A program made the translations under genes and the position numbers. From Prochlorococcus sp. AG-459-M13 (lineage in GTDB: Bacteria > Cyanobacteriota > Cyanobacteriia > PCC-6307 > Cyanobiaceae): DNA of 64,000 nt. Location of the stretch: positions 1 to 64,000 of the forward strand of contig QCRE01000003.1 in the NCBI GenBank assembly GCA_003212005.1, read 5' to 3'. How positions within the stretch are numbered: position 1 is the stretch's first letter; the number at the start of each line of letters is the position of its first letter. The notes beneath the pieces are model-generated. The model did not search any database. It was not told the DNA's origin and saw only the letters and a program-made list of their open reading frames with translations. This document shows positions 53,293 through 63,976 of this stretch, piece by piece.

Positions 53293-54240
53293 TTATATAG
53301 CGTTTGATTGCATTATCTCCTTTAAAGAAGGGAGAATTGGAGTAATTTGACTCGGGTTTAAAGGAAAAATTGCTTTGTAATAGTCTGTTTTCCATTCAGA
53401 ATCAAAACATGTTTCAGCAACATCAGTTAATTTAAAAAATTTTAATCTCCATTCAATAATTTTCTCAAAATCTAATAGTTCTTGTTCAGTACATTTAAAA
53501 AGTTTGCTATATATCAATTCCCATCTTATAAGTGTTGGGAAAAGGTAAATATCTGCGAAAGTCAACTCTTCTCCAAATATCCAATCCCCTTCATTACGGC
53601 TCATTATATTTTGAACCTCATTTAAAGCTGAGAAAAGATTTTTACTTGCTTTCTCATATGATGACTGGTTTCTGGCGAATCCACACTGATATACACCATC
53701 ATTAATATTATTATGAATTAATTTTAAAAACTTTTGATTACAGTCTTGGATATTTAGTGTTTGATATTTCGATTCACTTTTTATTGAATTAAGTAATATT
53801 ACTATCTGGGAACTTTCATTAGATAAAATATTTGCTTTATCGTTGTCAAAACCAATTAAAAGAGGTAAAGTCGCTCGGAAAATTATTTTTTTATTAGATT
53901 TTTTGTAAAGTTCAGAAAGCCTCTTAAATCCTTTGAAATTTTTATTAAAAATCCATTCACCATGTTCAACATCTGCTTTTAAAAAAACAACTTTTACTTC
54001 ATTAGAAAGGTTTTTTATTTTATGGATGAGTAAAGTTCTGTGACACCAAGGACAAGATTTACCGAGCAATAAATAAATTTGTTCATTTTCTTTAATAATA
54101 TTGTAATCACTTTTATTTGTTATTCCTCTAGGCCTTTTATAATTACCTTATGGATCTGATGGTGCAAAACCATCCATTAATTTTGTCCAAAACCAATACC
54201 AAAAGATTTTTGAGGCTTTAATTAAGTATTTATTTTGCAT
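53293..54240 (-). pseudogene. Glutathione S-transferase-like gene interrupted by in-frame TAA at 54148-54150; track ORF covers 53293-54069 only
   Basis: ATG at 54240 reads MQNKYLIKASKIFWYWFWTKLMDGFAPSDP-stop-GNYKRPRGITNKSDYNIIKENEQIYLLLGKSCPWCHRTLL in one continuous frame. Confidence 0.7.
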
Positions 54241-54262
54241 TAGGTTTTATTTTAAAGAAAAA

Positions 54263-55168
54263 ATGACTGTTCAAAGAATACTTATCGTTTCAGGCACACA
54301 TGGGAATGAAATTAATCCTGTTTGGGCTGTTAATCAATTTAATCGAGAGGAGAATAGAATTAAAAAAGGTATTGAGTATGAGTACATAATAGGCAATCCT
54401 ATTGCTTATGAAAAAGGCTGTAGATATTTAGATGTAGATTTAAATAGATCTTTTAAAGAAAGTAAGAATTATCATCAATACAAGAATACTATCTATGAAA
54501 TTAATAGAGCTAACTTTTTAGTGGATCAATTTGGAATAGATGGATCTAAACCCTGCCAAATTGCTATCGATTTGCATACCACAACTGCAAATATGGGAAC
54601 GAGTATAGTTTTGTATGGGAGGAGATTTAGAGATTTTTGTTTAGCTGCATTACTGCAGAATAAATTTGGATTGCCTATTTATCTCCATGAAAAAGATAAA
54701 GACCAAACTGGATTTCTTGTAGAAGCTTGGCCTTGTGGTTTAGTTATTGAAATAGGAGCTGTCGCACAAAATTTTTATGATCCAAAAATCATAAATAGAT
54801 TTTTAATAATAATTAGCTCTTTAAGAGAAGAGATATCTAAACTGCAAAATAAACTAATAGAATTGCCTAAGGAATTGATTATTCACGTCCATAAAGGGAG
54901 TATAGATTATCCAAGAGATGAAAAAGGAAATATTGATGGCTTGATTCATCCTGAAAGAATAAATCAAGATTGGAAAATGATTAAAAAAGGAGATCCATTA
55001 TTTCTTGATAGCCACGGGATTGTCCATAAATATGATGGAGATCAGTTAATTTGGCCTGTTTTTATTGGCGAAGTTGCTTATAAAGAAAAAAAAATTGCGA
55101 TGAGCTATACACAAAAGGAAGTTATTTATTTCAAAAATGAATGGATTCAAGAGTTTGAACGCCTTTAA
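54263..55168 (+). CDS. Aspartoacylase/succinylglutamate desuccinylase-family protein
   Basis: ILIVSGTHGNEINPVW, DLNRSF, IDLHTTTANMG. Confidence 0.88.
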   Translation: MTVQRILIVSGTHGNEINPVWAVNQFNREENRIKKGIEYEYIIGNPIAYEKGCRYLDVDLNRSFKESKNYHQYKNTIYEINRANFLVDQFGIDGSKPCQIAIDLHTTTANMGTSIVLYGRRFRDFCLAALLQNKFGLPIYLHEKDKDQTGFLVEAWPCGLVIEIGAVAQNFYDPKIINRFLIIISSLREEISKLQNKLIELPKELIIHVHKGSIDYPRDEKGNIDGLIHPERINQDWKMIKKGDPLFLDSHGIVHKYDGDQLIWPVFIGEVAYKEKKIAMSYTQKEVIYFKNEWIQEFERL

Positions 55169-56795: not shown

Positions 56796-57890
56796 ATGAG
56801 TAGCAGTTTTGGAAAAATTTTTCGTGTAAGTACTTTTGGAGAATCTCATGGAGGTGCAGTTGGAGTGATTCTTGATGGATGTCCTCCAAAGTTAAAAATA
56901 AATATTGATCTCATACAAAATGAATTAGATAGAAGAAGACCCGGTCAAAGCAAAATTACAACTCCAAGAAATGAAGAAGATAAACTAGAGATACTAAGTG
57001 GGTTAAAGGATGGAACTACACTAGGAACACCTATTGCTATGATAGTTCGCAATAAAGATCAAAGACCTGGAGATTACAGTAATTTGGAGCAGGTCTTTAG
57101 GCCATCTCATGCAGATGGTACTTACCATTTAAAGTATGGAATTCAGGCAAGTTCTGGAGGTGGTAGAGCTTCCGCAAGAGAAACGATAGGAAGGGTTGCT
57201 GCAGGAGCCATAGCAAAACAATTATTGAAAACGTTATTTAATACTGAAATTCTTTCTTGGGTAAAACGTATACATGATATAGATTCTCAAGTTAATAAAG
57301 ATAAACTTACTTTAGAAAAAATAGATTCAAATATTGTTAGATGTCCCGATGAAAAAATTGCTGCAACAATGATAGATAGAATAAAAGAATTACAGAAAGA
57401 AGGCGATTCCTGCGGAGGTGTAATTGAATGTTTAGTAAAAAATGTTCCATCAGGATTAGGGATGCCTGTTTTTGATAAATTAGAAGCTGACTTAGCAAAG
57501 GCCTTGATGTCTTTACCTGCTACAAAAGGTTTTGAAATAGGTTCGGGTTTCTCAGGCACCTATTTAAGAGGAAGTGAACATAATGATTCATTCGTAAAGT
57601 CTGATGATATTAATAAGCTAAAAACAATATCAAATAATTCAGGAGGTGTACAAGGAGGTATTAGCAACGGAGAGAACATAGAGATGAAAATTGCTTTTAA
57701 ACCGACTGCAACTATTGGTAAGGAACAGAAAACTGTTGATGCTAATGGAAAAGAAGTATTAATGAAGGCTAAAGGTCGACATGACCCATGTGTTTTACCA
57801 AGAGCAGTTCCGATGGTTGATTCAATGGTAGCTTTAGTATTGGCAGACCACTTACTTCTCCATCAAGCTCAATGTTCAATTATGAAGTAA
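56796..57890 (+). CDS. aroC: Chorismate synthase
   Basis: [58 protein letters not shown]. Confidence 0.98.
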
Positions 57891-57897
57891 TTAGTTT

Positions 57898-58566
57898 TTA
57901 ATTAGATTTATAGTTTAGAAATTCAAATATCTTGGGATCTATGTTTCTATTTTTAAAACCCTTATCCCCAATTACTATAGCTTTATATCCCAAAGACTTA
58001 TAAAGTGGTAAATCACATATGGATAGACCTCCAGCTGCAATGAAATCGATATTTTTATATTGCGATAAATTTATAGATTTATTCTTATCCTTTACTGGGT
58101 AAATTTTTATAATTTTACAATCTAAATCTATAGCTTCTTTAAGATCTTCTAAATTTTTTATGCCAGGAATTAATAAATGGTTTTTTGAATTTGAATAATT
58201 TAAAAGATCCTTATCCCAAAATTTCATCATTGAATATTTTAGTCCGATTTTTATAGATTCATCTATGGACTTCTTATTTATTATTGAAGCAGATCCTAAA
58301 TTAACTTTTGGAAACTTTAATTTTAGGTTTGATACAAAATTGAACCAGTATTTATGATCAGCCCAACTTATTTCTATATTGCTTGCCCCTCCTTTTATTA
58401 ACTTTTCAATTTGCCTTTCAACAAAGTCCCTATCTCTATCATTTGTATAAATATTGTGCGTTGGTTTTATTAATAAAAAAAAAGAAATTAATTCATTTTT
58501 AGAGAAAAAATCTACTTTGTTTTTAATATTATTATCGGATTTTATAAAATCATATATAGTTCGCAA
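57898..58566 (-). CDS. KDPG/KHG aldolase-like protein (divergent)
   Basis: GGASNIEISW, LLIPGIKNLEDLKEAIDLDCKIIKIYPV, IDFIAAGGLSICDLPLY; class I aldolase fold pattern. Confidence 0.75.
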   Translation of the reverse strand: MRTIYDFIKSDNNIKNKVDFFSKNELISFFLLIKPTHNIYTNDRDRDFVERQIEKLIKGGASNIEISWADHKYWFNFVSNLKLKFPKVNLGSASIINKKSIDESIKIGLKYSMMKFWDKDLLNYSNSKNHLLIPGIKNLEDLKEAIDLDCKIIKIYPVKDKNKSINLSQYKNIDFIAAGGLSICDLPLYKSLGYKAIVIGDKGFKNRNIDPKIFEFLNYKSN

Positions 58567-60403
58567 CTTTTACCTCAGAGCGGTTTAGTAAATCTTGGAT
58601 ATCTTCAGTGTCAATCGTTTCTCTTTCGATTAACATTGAGGCCATTTCATCAAGGACAGTTCTGTTTTCTGTAAGTACTTTTGTAGCTCTCTTATATGCT
58701 GTGTCAACAAGTTCAGATACTTCTACATCAATAGTAGCTGCTGTATCTTCAGAGAAATCTCTGGTGGCGCTCATATCTCGTCCTAAAAACATTCCTCCTT
58801 GTGATTGACCCAAAGCTACTGGCCCTATTTTGTCACTCATTCCAAATTTAGTGATCATTTGTCTTGCAACATTCGCGACCTGTTGCAAATCATTAGACGC
58901 ACCAGTAGTTACTTCCTCTTCTCCATAAACAATTTCTTCGGCAACTCTACCTCCAAGCGCTACAGCCATTTGGTTTTGTAAATAGGACCTTGAGTAAAGA
59001 CCAGACTCCATCCTCTCCTCGCTAGGAGTAAAGAAGGTTAATCCCCCTGCTTGACCTCTAGGGATTATAGAAACTTTTGCGACAGGGTCATAATCTGGCA
59101 TTAAAGCCCCCACTAAAGCGTGTCCCGCCTCATGATAAGCAACAAGTTCTTTCTTTTTATCGCTTATAACTCTATCTTTTTTTTCTGGACCTGCCATTAC
59201 TCTCTCAATCGCATCTCCCACCTCATCATTGCTAACTGTATCTAGGTCTTTTCTTGCTGCAAGGATAGCTGCTTCGTTTAAAAGGTTTGCCAAATCAGCG
59301 CCTGTAAATCCTGGAGTTCTTCTTGCAACTTTGTCAAGGTCTACATCTTTTGAAAGGGTTTTATCCTTTGCATGGACATTTAAAATTTGTAATCTTCCAG
59401 CATAATCAGGTCTATCTACAGTTACTTGCCTGTCAAATCTACCTGGCCTCATTAATGCTGAGTCTAAAACATCTGGTCTGTTCGTAGCAGCAACAATAAT
59501 TATTCCAGAATTACCTTCAAAACCATCCATTTCAGTCAGTAGTTGGTTTAAGGTTTGCTCTCTTTCATCATTACCACCCCCCATACCAGCACCTCTCTGT
59601 CTTCCTACAGCGTCAATTTCGTCAATAAAAACTATACAAGGAGCATTTTTTTTAGCCTGTTCAAATAAGTCTCTAACCCTACTTGCACCAACTCCTACAA
59701 ACATTTCTACAAACTCTGAACCTGATATTGAGAAAAATGGAACACCTGCTTCTCCAGCAACTGCTTTAGCCAAAAGAGTTTTTCCTGTGCCTGGAGGTCC
59801 CACTAAAAGGACTCCCTTTGGGATTTTGGCTCCAACTTCAGTGAATCTGTCTGGACTTTTAAGAAAATCAACAACCTCAGTTAATTCTAATTTTGCACCT
59901 TCTACACCTGCAACATCTGAAAAAGTTACTTGAGTAGATGGTTCCATTTGAAGTCTCGCTTTACTTTTACCAAAACTCATTGCAGGATTACCACCACCAC
60001 CGCTGCCGCTTTGAGACCTCCTAAATAGAAAGAATAAACCTCCAATTAATAAAACAGGAAAAATTAAACTACTAATAGCTTGCTGCCAAGGATTAGATAA
60101 TTTTGTAGGAGTAACAGCTATATCTACGTCGTTCTCAGTAAGAATTTTGAGTAAATCTTTATCCGGAGCCAAGTTAACTTCAGATCTGCTCCCATCATTT
60201 TCAACTACTAAAGCAGTACCATTATCTGGAGATAATAATACCCTACTAATTTCTTTATCTTGAACGGCTTCGATAAAATCACTATATCTAAGAGTTTTTG
60301 TAGCATTTTCAGTATTAGGTTTATCAAAAACAGAAGTGCCTATAAAAATGACTGTAATAACTGCTAGAACATAAAGTCCTACATTTCTCCAACGTTTATT
60401 CAC
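58550..60403 (-). CDS. ftsH: ATP-dependent zinc metalloprotease FtsH
   Basis: [26 protein letters not shown] region, HEAGHALVG zinc motif. Confidence 0.98.
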
Positions 60404-60449
60404 GGTAATAAATCAGTATTAAATCTATAATACTAATAATAAAACAATA

Positions 60450-61625
60450 TTAAGACTTTCTTAGAACATCTACTACACTTTTGAACGCAAACCATTCTGG
60501 TATTGGATCACCATTTCTTAGTTTTTTTCTAAATTCTGTACCGCTGAGTTTCATTACTTGATAATTATGGTCTTTTGCTTCTTCAGCAGTTAAGTAACCT
60601 TTTTCTTTTGTGTATACCAAATTTTTTGAAGGTACAGTTTTCATCATTAACTCTTCTGCACATTCATTAGCAAAGTTTTGAGCATCATACGGTCCATAAA
60701 AATCTTCACCAGTAGATGATGATTTACATCCAGCCATATCTCTACCAATTATAAAATGTGTACATCCATAATTTCTCCTGATAATCATGTGTTGTAGAGC
60801 TTCTCTTGGTCCTGCCATATGCATAGAGTAAGGTAAAAAAGCCCATTTTATTTTTTTATTAGAAATCTCCTCTTCTAATTTTTTATATGTCAAATATCGA
60901 ACTTTTCCAGGTATGTCATCCTGTTGCGTTGGTCCACAGGTTGGATGAACCAAAACAACTGAATTTGAGGATACATTTTCTGAATGCAAAGCATTAGAAA
61001 ATAATTCATAATGAGCTCTATGAATTGGATTTCTGCATTGAAAAGCTACTACATCAAAATTCGCAGGCAATAAACTTCTCACTTCTCTAGGTGTTTTACA
61101 TGGAAAATCCCTATTGGGGAGCTCCAAACCATATATTTTACCTCCTAAGTAATACCGACCTCTCTCATTGAAAATCATTTTTACTGCAGGATGATCTAAG
61201 GAATTAGTTCCGTAACAAAATTTTGCTTCTATGGATTTATCTGGCTCCCATTTTGAACTTACTTCTAATATTGCTAATTTTTGTTTTTTGTAGGTAAGTA
61301 ATAATTTTTTACCAACGTTGATTTGTGCACTATCGGTGTCTAATACAATTGGCAAACCAAAAAGTAAACCTTTTGAATCTCTATGGATTTTAATGACCGA
61401 TTCATAATCTTTTTTATCCATAAATCCCTCGAGAGGAGAAAATCCTCCAACCATTAAAAGCTCTACATCACATGCATTTCTATCACTACATTCATGCTCA
61501 TAAGAAACTTCAGAAAGTAATTTTAATTTATGTTCTTCATTCTGGATAATTAATTCTTTTAATTCTCCTCCATATGCAGGGATAAGACCTTTTGAATCCT
61601 TTTTAGATTCTTGTTTTAAGTTCAT
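60450..61625 (-). CDS. sat: Sulfate adenylyltransferase (ATP sulfurylase)
   Basis: QCRNPIHRAHYEL, VHPTCGPTQQDD, HFIIGRDMAG. Confidence 0.97.
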   Translation of the reverse strand: MNLKQESKKDSKGLIPAYGGELKELIIQNEEHKLKLLSEVSYEHECSDRNACDVELLMVGGFSPLEGFMDKKDYESVIKIHRDSKGLLFGLPIVLDTDSAQINVGKKLLLTYKKQKLAILEVSSKWEPDKSIEAKFCYGTNSLDHPAVKMIFNERGRYYLGGKIYGLELPNRDFPCKTPREVRSLLPANFDVVAFQCRNPIHRAHYELFSNALHSENVSSNSVVLVHPTCGPTQQDDIPGKVRYLTYKKLEEEISNKKIKWAFLPYSMHMAGPREALQHMIIRRNYGCTHFIIGRDMAGCKSSSTGEDFYGPYDAQNFANECAEELMMKTVPSKNLVYTKEKGYLTAEEAKDHNYQVMKLSGTEFRKKLRNGDPIPEWFAFKSVVDVLRKS

Positions 61626-61653
61626 TTTATTATTGTATTAAGAAAAATTTAGA

Positions 61654-61686
61654 AAAAAAAAGGGCACATTAGGCCCATTTTTTTTA
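61654..61686. terminator. Terminator-like hairpin 3' of psbO (minus strand), potentially bidirectional
   Basis: GGGC(acattag)GCCC stem flanked by A-tract and T-tract. Confidence 0.75.
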
Positions 61687-61698
61687 TCTTATTTAGAA

Positions 61699-62493
61699 TT
61701 AAGCTTTTCTTCCGTAAAGCTCACCAATTATCTTTACATCAAGAGGTTCTTTTGAACCCATATCTGTATCAGAAGGTTGGATTGCTACAAATGTACCTGC
61801 AAATTCATCCGTATCAGAATCTACATTTTCAATTGATAGTGTTACTACTCCAGTACCATTTACATCAACTTTAATATTTTCTTTAGCAAGTTCTTCATCA
61901 TCACCACCTAAGGCAACAAGACCTTGTGCGTATTCAACACCAGTATTTTTAGCTCTTGCTTTTGGATCTAAAAAATCTCCAGTTCTATAATTAGGTGTGA
62001 AAGTGGCACCACTCACTTCTGTTCCTGGCTCAATTGATGAAGGTAAATCAGCTGTTAAATCTTTTGCAGAAAAAGCAAATGGGACCTCTAAGCCACCAGG
62101 CGTTAGAACAGTTATTAATTGAAAATCAATCCCACCTTTTTCGATAAAAGTTCCTGAGTCGATATCTCCATACACCTCTGTGACTGTAGTGTTATTTCTA
62201 GGGCTAATAATTTTTGTCGCAACAAATTCAGCTTCTTTTCGTTTAGAGCCAGGAACTTTTACATAAACTTCTGTAGGGTGCATACATATACCTTTTAAAG
62301 AATCTCCATTTCCTAATGATATTGATCCAACAAGAGATGAATCTAATGAGGGACAATCATTAGCTTTCCCTGTATTTACAACATCAGTAAACTGAGCATT
62401 TCCCCTTTCTGAGAAGGCATATGTTTTATCTGGGAAGAAAGCAAAAGTTAAACAAAGAGAAATAACAAAAGCTAATAAAGAACGAATGCTCAT
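61699..62493 (-). CDS. psbO: Photosystem II manganese-stabilizing protein
   Basis: Signal peptide plus CPSLDSSLVGSISLGNGDSLKGICMHPTEVYVKVP..., TEVYGDIDSGTF, GGIDFQLITVLTPGG. Confidence 0.97.
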   Translation of the reverse strand: MSIRSLLAFVISLCLTFAFFPDKTYAFSERGNAQFTDVVNTGKANDCPSLDSSLVGSISLGNGDSLKGICMHPTEVYVKVPGSKRKEAEFVATKIISPRNNTTVTEVYGDIDSGTFIEKGGIDFQLITVLTPGGLEVPFAFSAKDLTADLPSSIEPGTEVSGATFTPNYRTGDFLDPKARAKNTGVEYAQGLVALGGDDEELAKENIKVDVNGTGVVTLSIENVDSDTDEFAGTFVAIQPSDTDMGSKEPLDVKIIGELYGRKA

Positions 62494-62713
62494 AATAAAA
62501 TTTCAGTAAAGTTCTGTAACTGCTGGTAAAGGATTACCTTAAAAATGTTCAGTACGGATATTACAAGAAAAAGAACCACAAAAGTTAGTTTTTTGTATCC
62601 TCGAAACAACCCGTAGCTTTTTTGAATTTTTTTTAAAATCAAAATCATTTTAAGATATAAGACTATTTTTAATGATTAAGATTACAAAAAAATACAAATA
62701 TCACAGTTATGAA

Positions 62714-63976
62714 TCATTTATTAGTTGAAATAATTTGATTTATTAAATTGTTAGCCAATTCAATTTTTGATGTTTTTTCTATATGACTTTCCATATCTTT
62801 TTTATCAAAAAGCCAGCCTTCATTTTTGGCTAAGGGACCAAATCCTTGTTCCTCGATATCTATAGGATTTGCAAAGAGGAGATCACAACCCTTCAGTATT
62901 AATTTCTCTTTAATTATTTTTTTTGCATTTTTCATAGGACCTGTAAATGCACAAAAGCCAACAAAAATTTGATTTTCTTTTTTCAACTTACTTATCTCAC
63001 TTAAGATATCTGGAACAAATTCTATATTTTTATTATTAAAAAATTTTATAAATTTATTTTTTGGAATTTTCTTCGAAGTATCACCTAATATTTTGAAATC
63101 TGATACTGCAGCATTCATTATAAAATAATCACATTTCGAAACTTCTTTTTTAATTGCATTTTTTAATTCATAACTATTCTCTATTTCATGCATTTTGATA
63201 CCCTCATTTATATCCAATTTATTTTTTAAAGGACCATGTATGTAATTTACTTTTGCGCCTCTAAATCTTGCTACTTGAGCAAGCATTAATCCCATAGTTC
63301 CAGAACTATTGTTTGTTATCTTTCTGGCGGCATCAATTTTTTCTGAAGTACAACCACCAGTAATTAAAAACCGTTTATTTAATAAATCTCTGTAGAAGGG
63401 TTTTTTATTTTGTATGAGTATAAAAGTTAAGGCTAAATGGATTAAATCATTGGAAGGTATTTTACCAATTCCAATTTCGTCGCAAGCAAGAATTCCATTA
63501 CAAGGTTTGAGTAGTAAAACATTAGAATAGTCTTGTAAATTTTGATAATTTTTTTGAACAGCATTATTAAGCCACATCTTAGAGTTCATGGCAGGTGCAA
63601 CAATAATAGGTTTATTATTTGCTAATAAAATACTTGAGATTAATCCATCTGCATTACCCGTGACCCACTTTGAGAGAGTTGTGGCTGTTAAAGGAGCAAT
63701 TATTAAAACATCAGCCCAATTGCATAAATCAATGTGTAGTGGACTTGATTGGAGATATGACCATTGATCATTATCTAATATGCAAGGGTTCCTACTCAGG
63801 ATAGATAGAGAAGCTGGTTGAATTAATTTTTCAGCATTTTTAGAGACAACGCATTTAATGTCATAATTATCCTTAAATAGTTGACTAACAAGTAGAGGGA
63901 TTCTTACTGCAGCAATACTTCCGGTTATTAATAGAAGAACTTTAACTTTTGATTCCCTAGATTTAGTTTTCATCAA
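62714..63976 (-). CDS. coaBC: Bifunctional phosphopantothenoylcysteine decarboxylase/phosphopantothenate-cysteine ligase
   Basis: LLLITGSIAAVRIP, APAMNSKMW, LITGGCTSEKIDAARKITNNSSGTMG. Confidence 0.95.
   Translation of the reverse strand: MMKTKSRESKVKVLLLITGSIAAVRIPLLVSQLFKDNYDIKCVVSKNAEKLIQPASLSILSRNPCILDNDQWSYLQSSPLHIDLCNWADVLIIAPLTATTLSKWVTGNADGLISSILLANNKPIIVAPAMNSKMWLNNAVQKNYQNLQDYSNVLLLKPCNGILACDEIGIGKIPSNDLIHLALTFILIQNKKPFYRDLLNKRFLITGGCTSEKIDAARKITNNSSGTMGLMLAQVARFRGAKVNYIHGPLKNKLDINEGIKMHEIENSYELKNAIKKEVSKCDYFIMNAAVSDFKILGDTSKKIPKNKFIKFFNNKNIEFVPDILSEISKLKKENQIFVGFCAFTGPMKNAKKIIKEKLILKGCDLLFANPIDIEEQGFGPLAKNEGWLFDKKDMESHIEKTSKIELANNLINQIISTNK

Follow-up and report, generated by a model that had tools for sequence, protein, structure and literature searches.

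The window, i.e. the whole 64,000-nucleotide stretch of Prochlorococcus sp. AG-459-M13 DNA that was analysed (contig QCRE01000003.1), has a gene for a glutathione S-transferase (GST)-like protein that is interrupted by one stop codon (Table 1). Translation of 53293-54240 (-) gives 316 codons including the final stop, with a single internal TAA at codon 31 (54148-54150). The earlier note, made from the letters of the window, had described a frame split by one in-frame TAA, and its coordinates and peptides are correct on translation. The residues before the TAA are MQNKYLIKASKIFWYWFWTKLMDGFAPSDP; after it the frame resumes with GNYKRP and is open until the stop at codon 316. A mechanical ORF call starts at TTG 54069 and has a length of 258 amino acids. 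There is no in-frame ATG, GTG or TTG in 54070..54147 (-), which is the interval from the TAA to residue 58. The TTG at residue 58 is five codons ahead of the catalytic Cys63 and is unlikely to be a start codon. The gene next to the GST is divergent and encodes a product which we take to be aspartoacylase/succinylglutamate desuccinylase-like. The start codons of the two genes are separated by 22 nt (window 54240-54263), or by 23 nt in several relatives; therefore, the promoter or leader of each gene must overlap the opposite gene.

Table 1. Features of the interrupted GST-like gene and its neighbour (window coordinates)
Feature	Position	Strand	Basis
GST-like gene, full frame, interrupted once	53293..54240	-	Translation; orthologues cover the entire frame
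In-frame TAA, codon 31; CAT, CAA, TAT or CAC in 99/99 distinct relatives	54148..54150	-	
Codons 1-30, conserved N-terminal extension (W..W..LM.GFAPSD)	54151..54240	-	Genus orthologues and class alignment
26 codons from the TAA to the first in-frame TTG; conserved G.YKRP	54070..54147	-	
TTG at residue 58, the first in frame past the stop, within an LLLG stretch	54067..54069	-	
CPWC motif, residues 63-66; Cys63 aligned to the catalytic Cys of Xi-class enzymes	54043..54054	-	
C-terminal GST domain (helical), containing Tyr184, Tyr244 and Tyr287/288	53377..53691	-	Pfam GST_C_2 and alignments
Divergent neighbour, intact here, aspartoacylase/succinylglutamate desuccinylase-like	54263..55168	+	Sequence reading

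The protein matches Pfam GST_N_2 (4.8e-06) and GST_C_2 (1.3e-08), both passing the cut-off; an NCBIfam profile search of the protein gave no match above the cut-off. The nearest PDB matches are to Xi-class enzymes, among them 4fqu (1.8e-30), YqjG 3r3e (1.5e-29) and 4uss (3.6e-28), and include fungal Xi enzymes, which bears out the resemblance to YqjG/ECM4 seen in the earlier note. The gene shares several features with the Xi-class glutathione transferases, or glutathionyl-hydroquinone reductases, which include YqjG of E. coli, ECM4 of yeast and Slr0605 of Synechocystis. These are a thioredoxin-like GST N domain and a helical GST C domain (Pfam, PDB), a catalytic cysteine in a CPW motif (Cys63 of CPWC aligns with CPWA), an aligned NES glutathione-binding motif, and an active-site tyrosine triad that is placed by alignment only (Tyr184, Tyr244, Tyr287/288). 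The roles of the catalytic cysteine, the NES motif and the triad in the Xi class have been described (PMC5063366). The gene differs from these enzymes in having CPWC for CPWA, a cyanobacterial N-terminal extension (W..W..LM..LAP.D..G.Y.RP) and the TAA interruption.

CPWA is described as strictly conserved in Xi-class glutathione transferases (PMC5063366) and is present in the other cyanobacteria sampled in the class alignment, including the sister genus. All Prochlorococcus copies that were looked at, the distant ones included, have CPWC. Since CPWC replaces CPWA, the protein is termed Xi-like rather than a canonical Xi-class member. The genus-wide form is CPWCQR or CPWCHR, both in the window (54043-54054) and in all genus orthologues, and the second cysteine, which is glutaredoxin-like, seems from these alignments to have originated within Prochlorococcus. 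Many cyanobacteria carry two genes of the Xi-like type. One has the long W..W..LM..LAP N-terminus and is closest to the GST here; the other is shorter and YqjG-like. Slr0605, the Xi enzyme of Synechocystis, reduces glutathionyl-hydroquinones and protects against benzoquinone and cobalt, and deletion of slr0605 leaves normal growth unaffected (PMC11673678). By analogy, the intact protein may have a role in quinone or redox detoxification.

The gene is found in 118 of 151 genus genomes and in 47 of the 51 high-quality ones. These orthologues (310-325 codons) share their locus, divergent neighbour, start and family with the window copy, but have a sense codon where it has the TAA. The 99 distinct relatives all align from residue 1 across the 30 pre-stop codons, and the start at the matching position is ATG in 98 and GTG in one. 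Orthologues were tested for downstream starts that lack upstream homology and none was found; homology extends over all 30 upstream codons, in keeping with the split gene proposed earlier. The residue at the stop site is variable, and the flanking W..W..LM..LAP.D..G.Y.RP is conserved across cyanobacterial families in the class alignment. Since the N-terminus is homologous and its surroundings are conserved, the short ORF is the form of a broken gene and not of a misplaced gene start. The open frame upstream of the TAA is thus more than chance.

The codon that matches the TAA is CAT in 70, CAA in 14, TAT in 14 and CAC in one of the 99 distinct Prochlorococcus relatives. None of them has a stop at this site, and all of the sense codons are one or two base changes from TAA. 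In the seven nearest sequences by DNA, the codon is CAA in five, TAT in one and CAT in one. The CAA to TAA change suggested in the earlier note is a fair guess from these neighbours, but CAA is a minority codon (14/99) and TAT is likewise a single base change from TAA. The nearest copy of the gene among those compared, none of which comes from a close relative of this lineage, has 84% DNA identity.

The genes of the window form a mosaic with respect to two groups, for which HLI-like (group of complete genome G015) and HLII-like (group of complete genome G156) are labels of our own. Genes in 300-23764 are mostly nearer to G156, and those in 23820-52615 are nearer to G015. The GST and its neighbour (53293-55168) are HLII-like again, and 56796-63973 is HLI-like. 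A second contig of the assembly, C2, is HLI-like almost throughout. The switch at about 23.8 kb may be either an old recombination or a chimeric contig.

Apart from the stop, the window copy resembles an intact gene. Measured against the HLI-like outgroup, it has a dN of 0.236, where the intact HLII-like copies have a median of 0.237, and its whole-gene dN/dS against the HLII-like copies is 0.17, which equals the value within intact copies. The 284 codons past the TAA are open and have a dN/dS of about 0.18. Of 87 columns that are otherwise invariant, three are altered in the window copy, and no intact copy has more than two such changes. The window copy is also about 2.6 times further (dN) from the HLII-like copies than these are from one another, and given this more divergent lineage we read the three altered columns as neutral evidence. 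The copy has one mark of a pseudogene, a disabling change relative to intact orthologues (TAA against the sense codons of 99 distinct relatives); the other, relaxed constraint or further decay, was not found, as dN and dN/dS are the same as in intact copies. An old pseudogene is rejected since neither measure shows relaxed constraint, and for the same reason the stop is either very recent or not a real one.

The draft assembly totals 1.02 Mb over 56 contigs, with 64.55% completeness and 0.02% contamination, and probably comes from a single amplified cell. The background rate of stops was surveyed by comparing the proteins of the two complete genomes with the window and contig C2, which together cover about 120 genes over 139 kb; contig C1 was left out because its first 12 kb are non-syntenic with the references. 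The TAA in the GST gene is the only clear mid-gene stop in this set, and no frameshifts were seen among these conserved genes. Other flagged stops were rejected, as they lie in the opening few codons of references that are over-extended, or in the last codons. A lone mid-gene stop in about 120 genes fits neither an assembly that is sloppy throughout nor a recoded genome.

Other genomes of the genus also have damage at this locus. The GST copy of G148 (L123, G148:C18:1000-2700) is independently disrupted. It is like the window copy in being the same gene with in-frame stops, but its two internal TAG lie at other codons, it starts with GTG, and its dN exceeds that of every other copy in the set, which together suggest older decay. 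In G013 (L191, G013:C3:16400-17900), the divergent neighbour gene is interrupted once, by a TGA in place of a conserved Trp. The stops flagged in the GST copies of G021 and G029 turned out to be terminal ones. No internal stop occurs in the full-length mutS2 and aroC copies from the same 151 genomes; the aroC of G010 is split over two frames, which looks like an artefact. The presence of stops in the GST (here and in G148) and in its neighbour (G013), with none in full-length mutS2 or aroC, slightly favours real mutations in dispensable genes, with the caveats that the numbers are too small to be decisive, that the genome was chosen for its stop and that the G010 aroC looks like an artefact.

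These observations establish a stop codon with homology on either side, in a gene with no other damage and no relaxed constraint. The best explanation, with a probability of about 0.6, is that an Xi-like (YqjG/ECM4) GST gene, present genus-wide and normally intact, has recently acquired a nonsense mutation through a single base change. This change would have produced the TAA at codon 31, so that translation from ATG 54240 would stop after 30 residues; the remainder, including the catalytic Cys63, would not be made at a useful level and the cell would be without the enzyme. Two points are inferred: the cell itself carries this base, and it makes no functional product. Since dN and dN/dS equal those of intact copies, the damage would be too recent to show in either measure, and since slr0605 is dispensable in Synechocystis (PMC11673678), the loss is tolerable in a relative. 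The broken gene in G148 also counts in favor of a nonsense mutation. Counting against it are the retention of the gene in 47 of 51 high-quality genomes, which makes its loss uncommon, the draft state of the assembly (64.55%, 56 contigs) and the distance to the nearest gene copy (84% DNA identity).

The earlier note had listed a recent nonsense mutation, a sequencing error, readthrough and re-initiation; the first two remain, but the others are poorly supported, as there is no recoding and no plausible start. It is possible, but less probable than a mutation, that the TAA is an artefact of a base change in single-cell lysis, whole-genome amplification or assembly and that the true gene is intact. 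The size, contig number and completeness of the assembly seem to fit a single amplified genome, and a C-to-T change would match cytosine deamination, which is known to generate false variants when single cells are amplified (PMC8214697). The unrelaxed constraint fits an artefact equally well, and isolated damage occurs in other genomes (the TGA in the neighbour gene of G013, the two-frame aroC of G010). However, this is the only such event in 139 kb of this genome, and mutS2 and aroC, with far more codons, are stop-free when full-length while the stops seen fall in the GST and its neighbour, albeit in numbers too small to be decisive and with this genome having been chosen for its stop.

The intact and constrained downstream frame would also be expected if the stop were real and a functional protein were still made, through readthrough of the TAA or re-initiation at TTG 54069 or at a rare ATT/ATA. 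This is improbable, since a young stop already explains the constraint. Recoding of TAA is rejected because this is the sole clear mid-gene stop among about 120 genes, and readthrough is likewise unsupported. For re-initiation, the first ATG, GTG or TTG past the stop is only at residue 58, and a product from this TTG would lose the conserved N-terminal extension together with most of the strand ahead of the catalytic cysteine. That readthrough or two-piece expression is a regulated feature of the lineage is more improbable still. The least credible possibility is that the 30 upstream codons are outside the gene and that the natural protein starts downstream, where the mechanical call begins (TTG 54069). 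The matching start in the 99 distinct relatives (ATG in 98, GTG in one) is followed by the same N-terminus, which is conserved across the class, and the alignments refute this reading.

As a finding, one nonsense codon in a gene of a known type, whether a young mutation or a sequencing artefact, is an ordinary one. The annotation can be corrected in either case, as the gene starts at ATG 54240 and not at the TTG, which is a spurious start. If the stop is not real, the gene is an example of the false pseudogenes that come from single-cell genomes. If the stop is real, as under the preferred reading of a recent nonsense mutation, it would be the first step in the loss of a near-universal stress gene from a streamlined genome.
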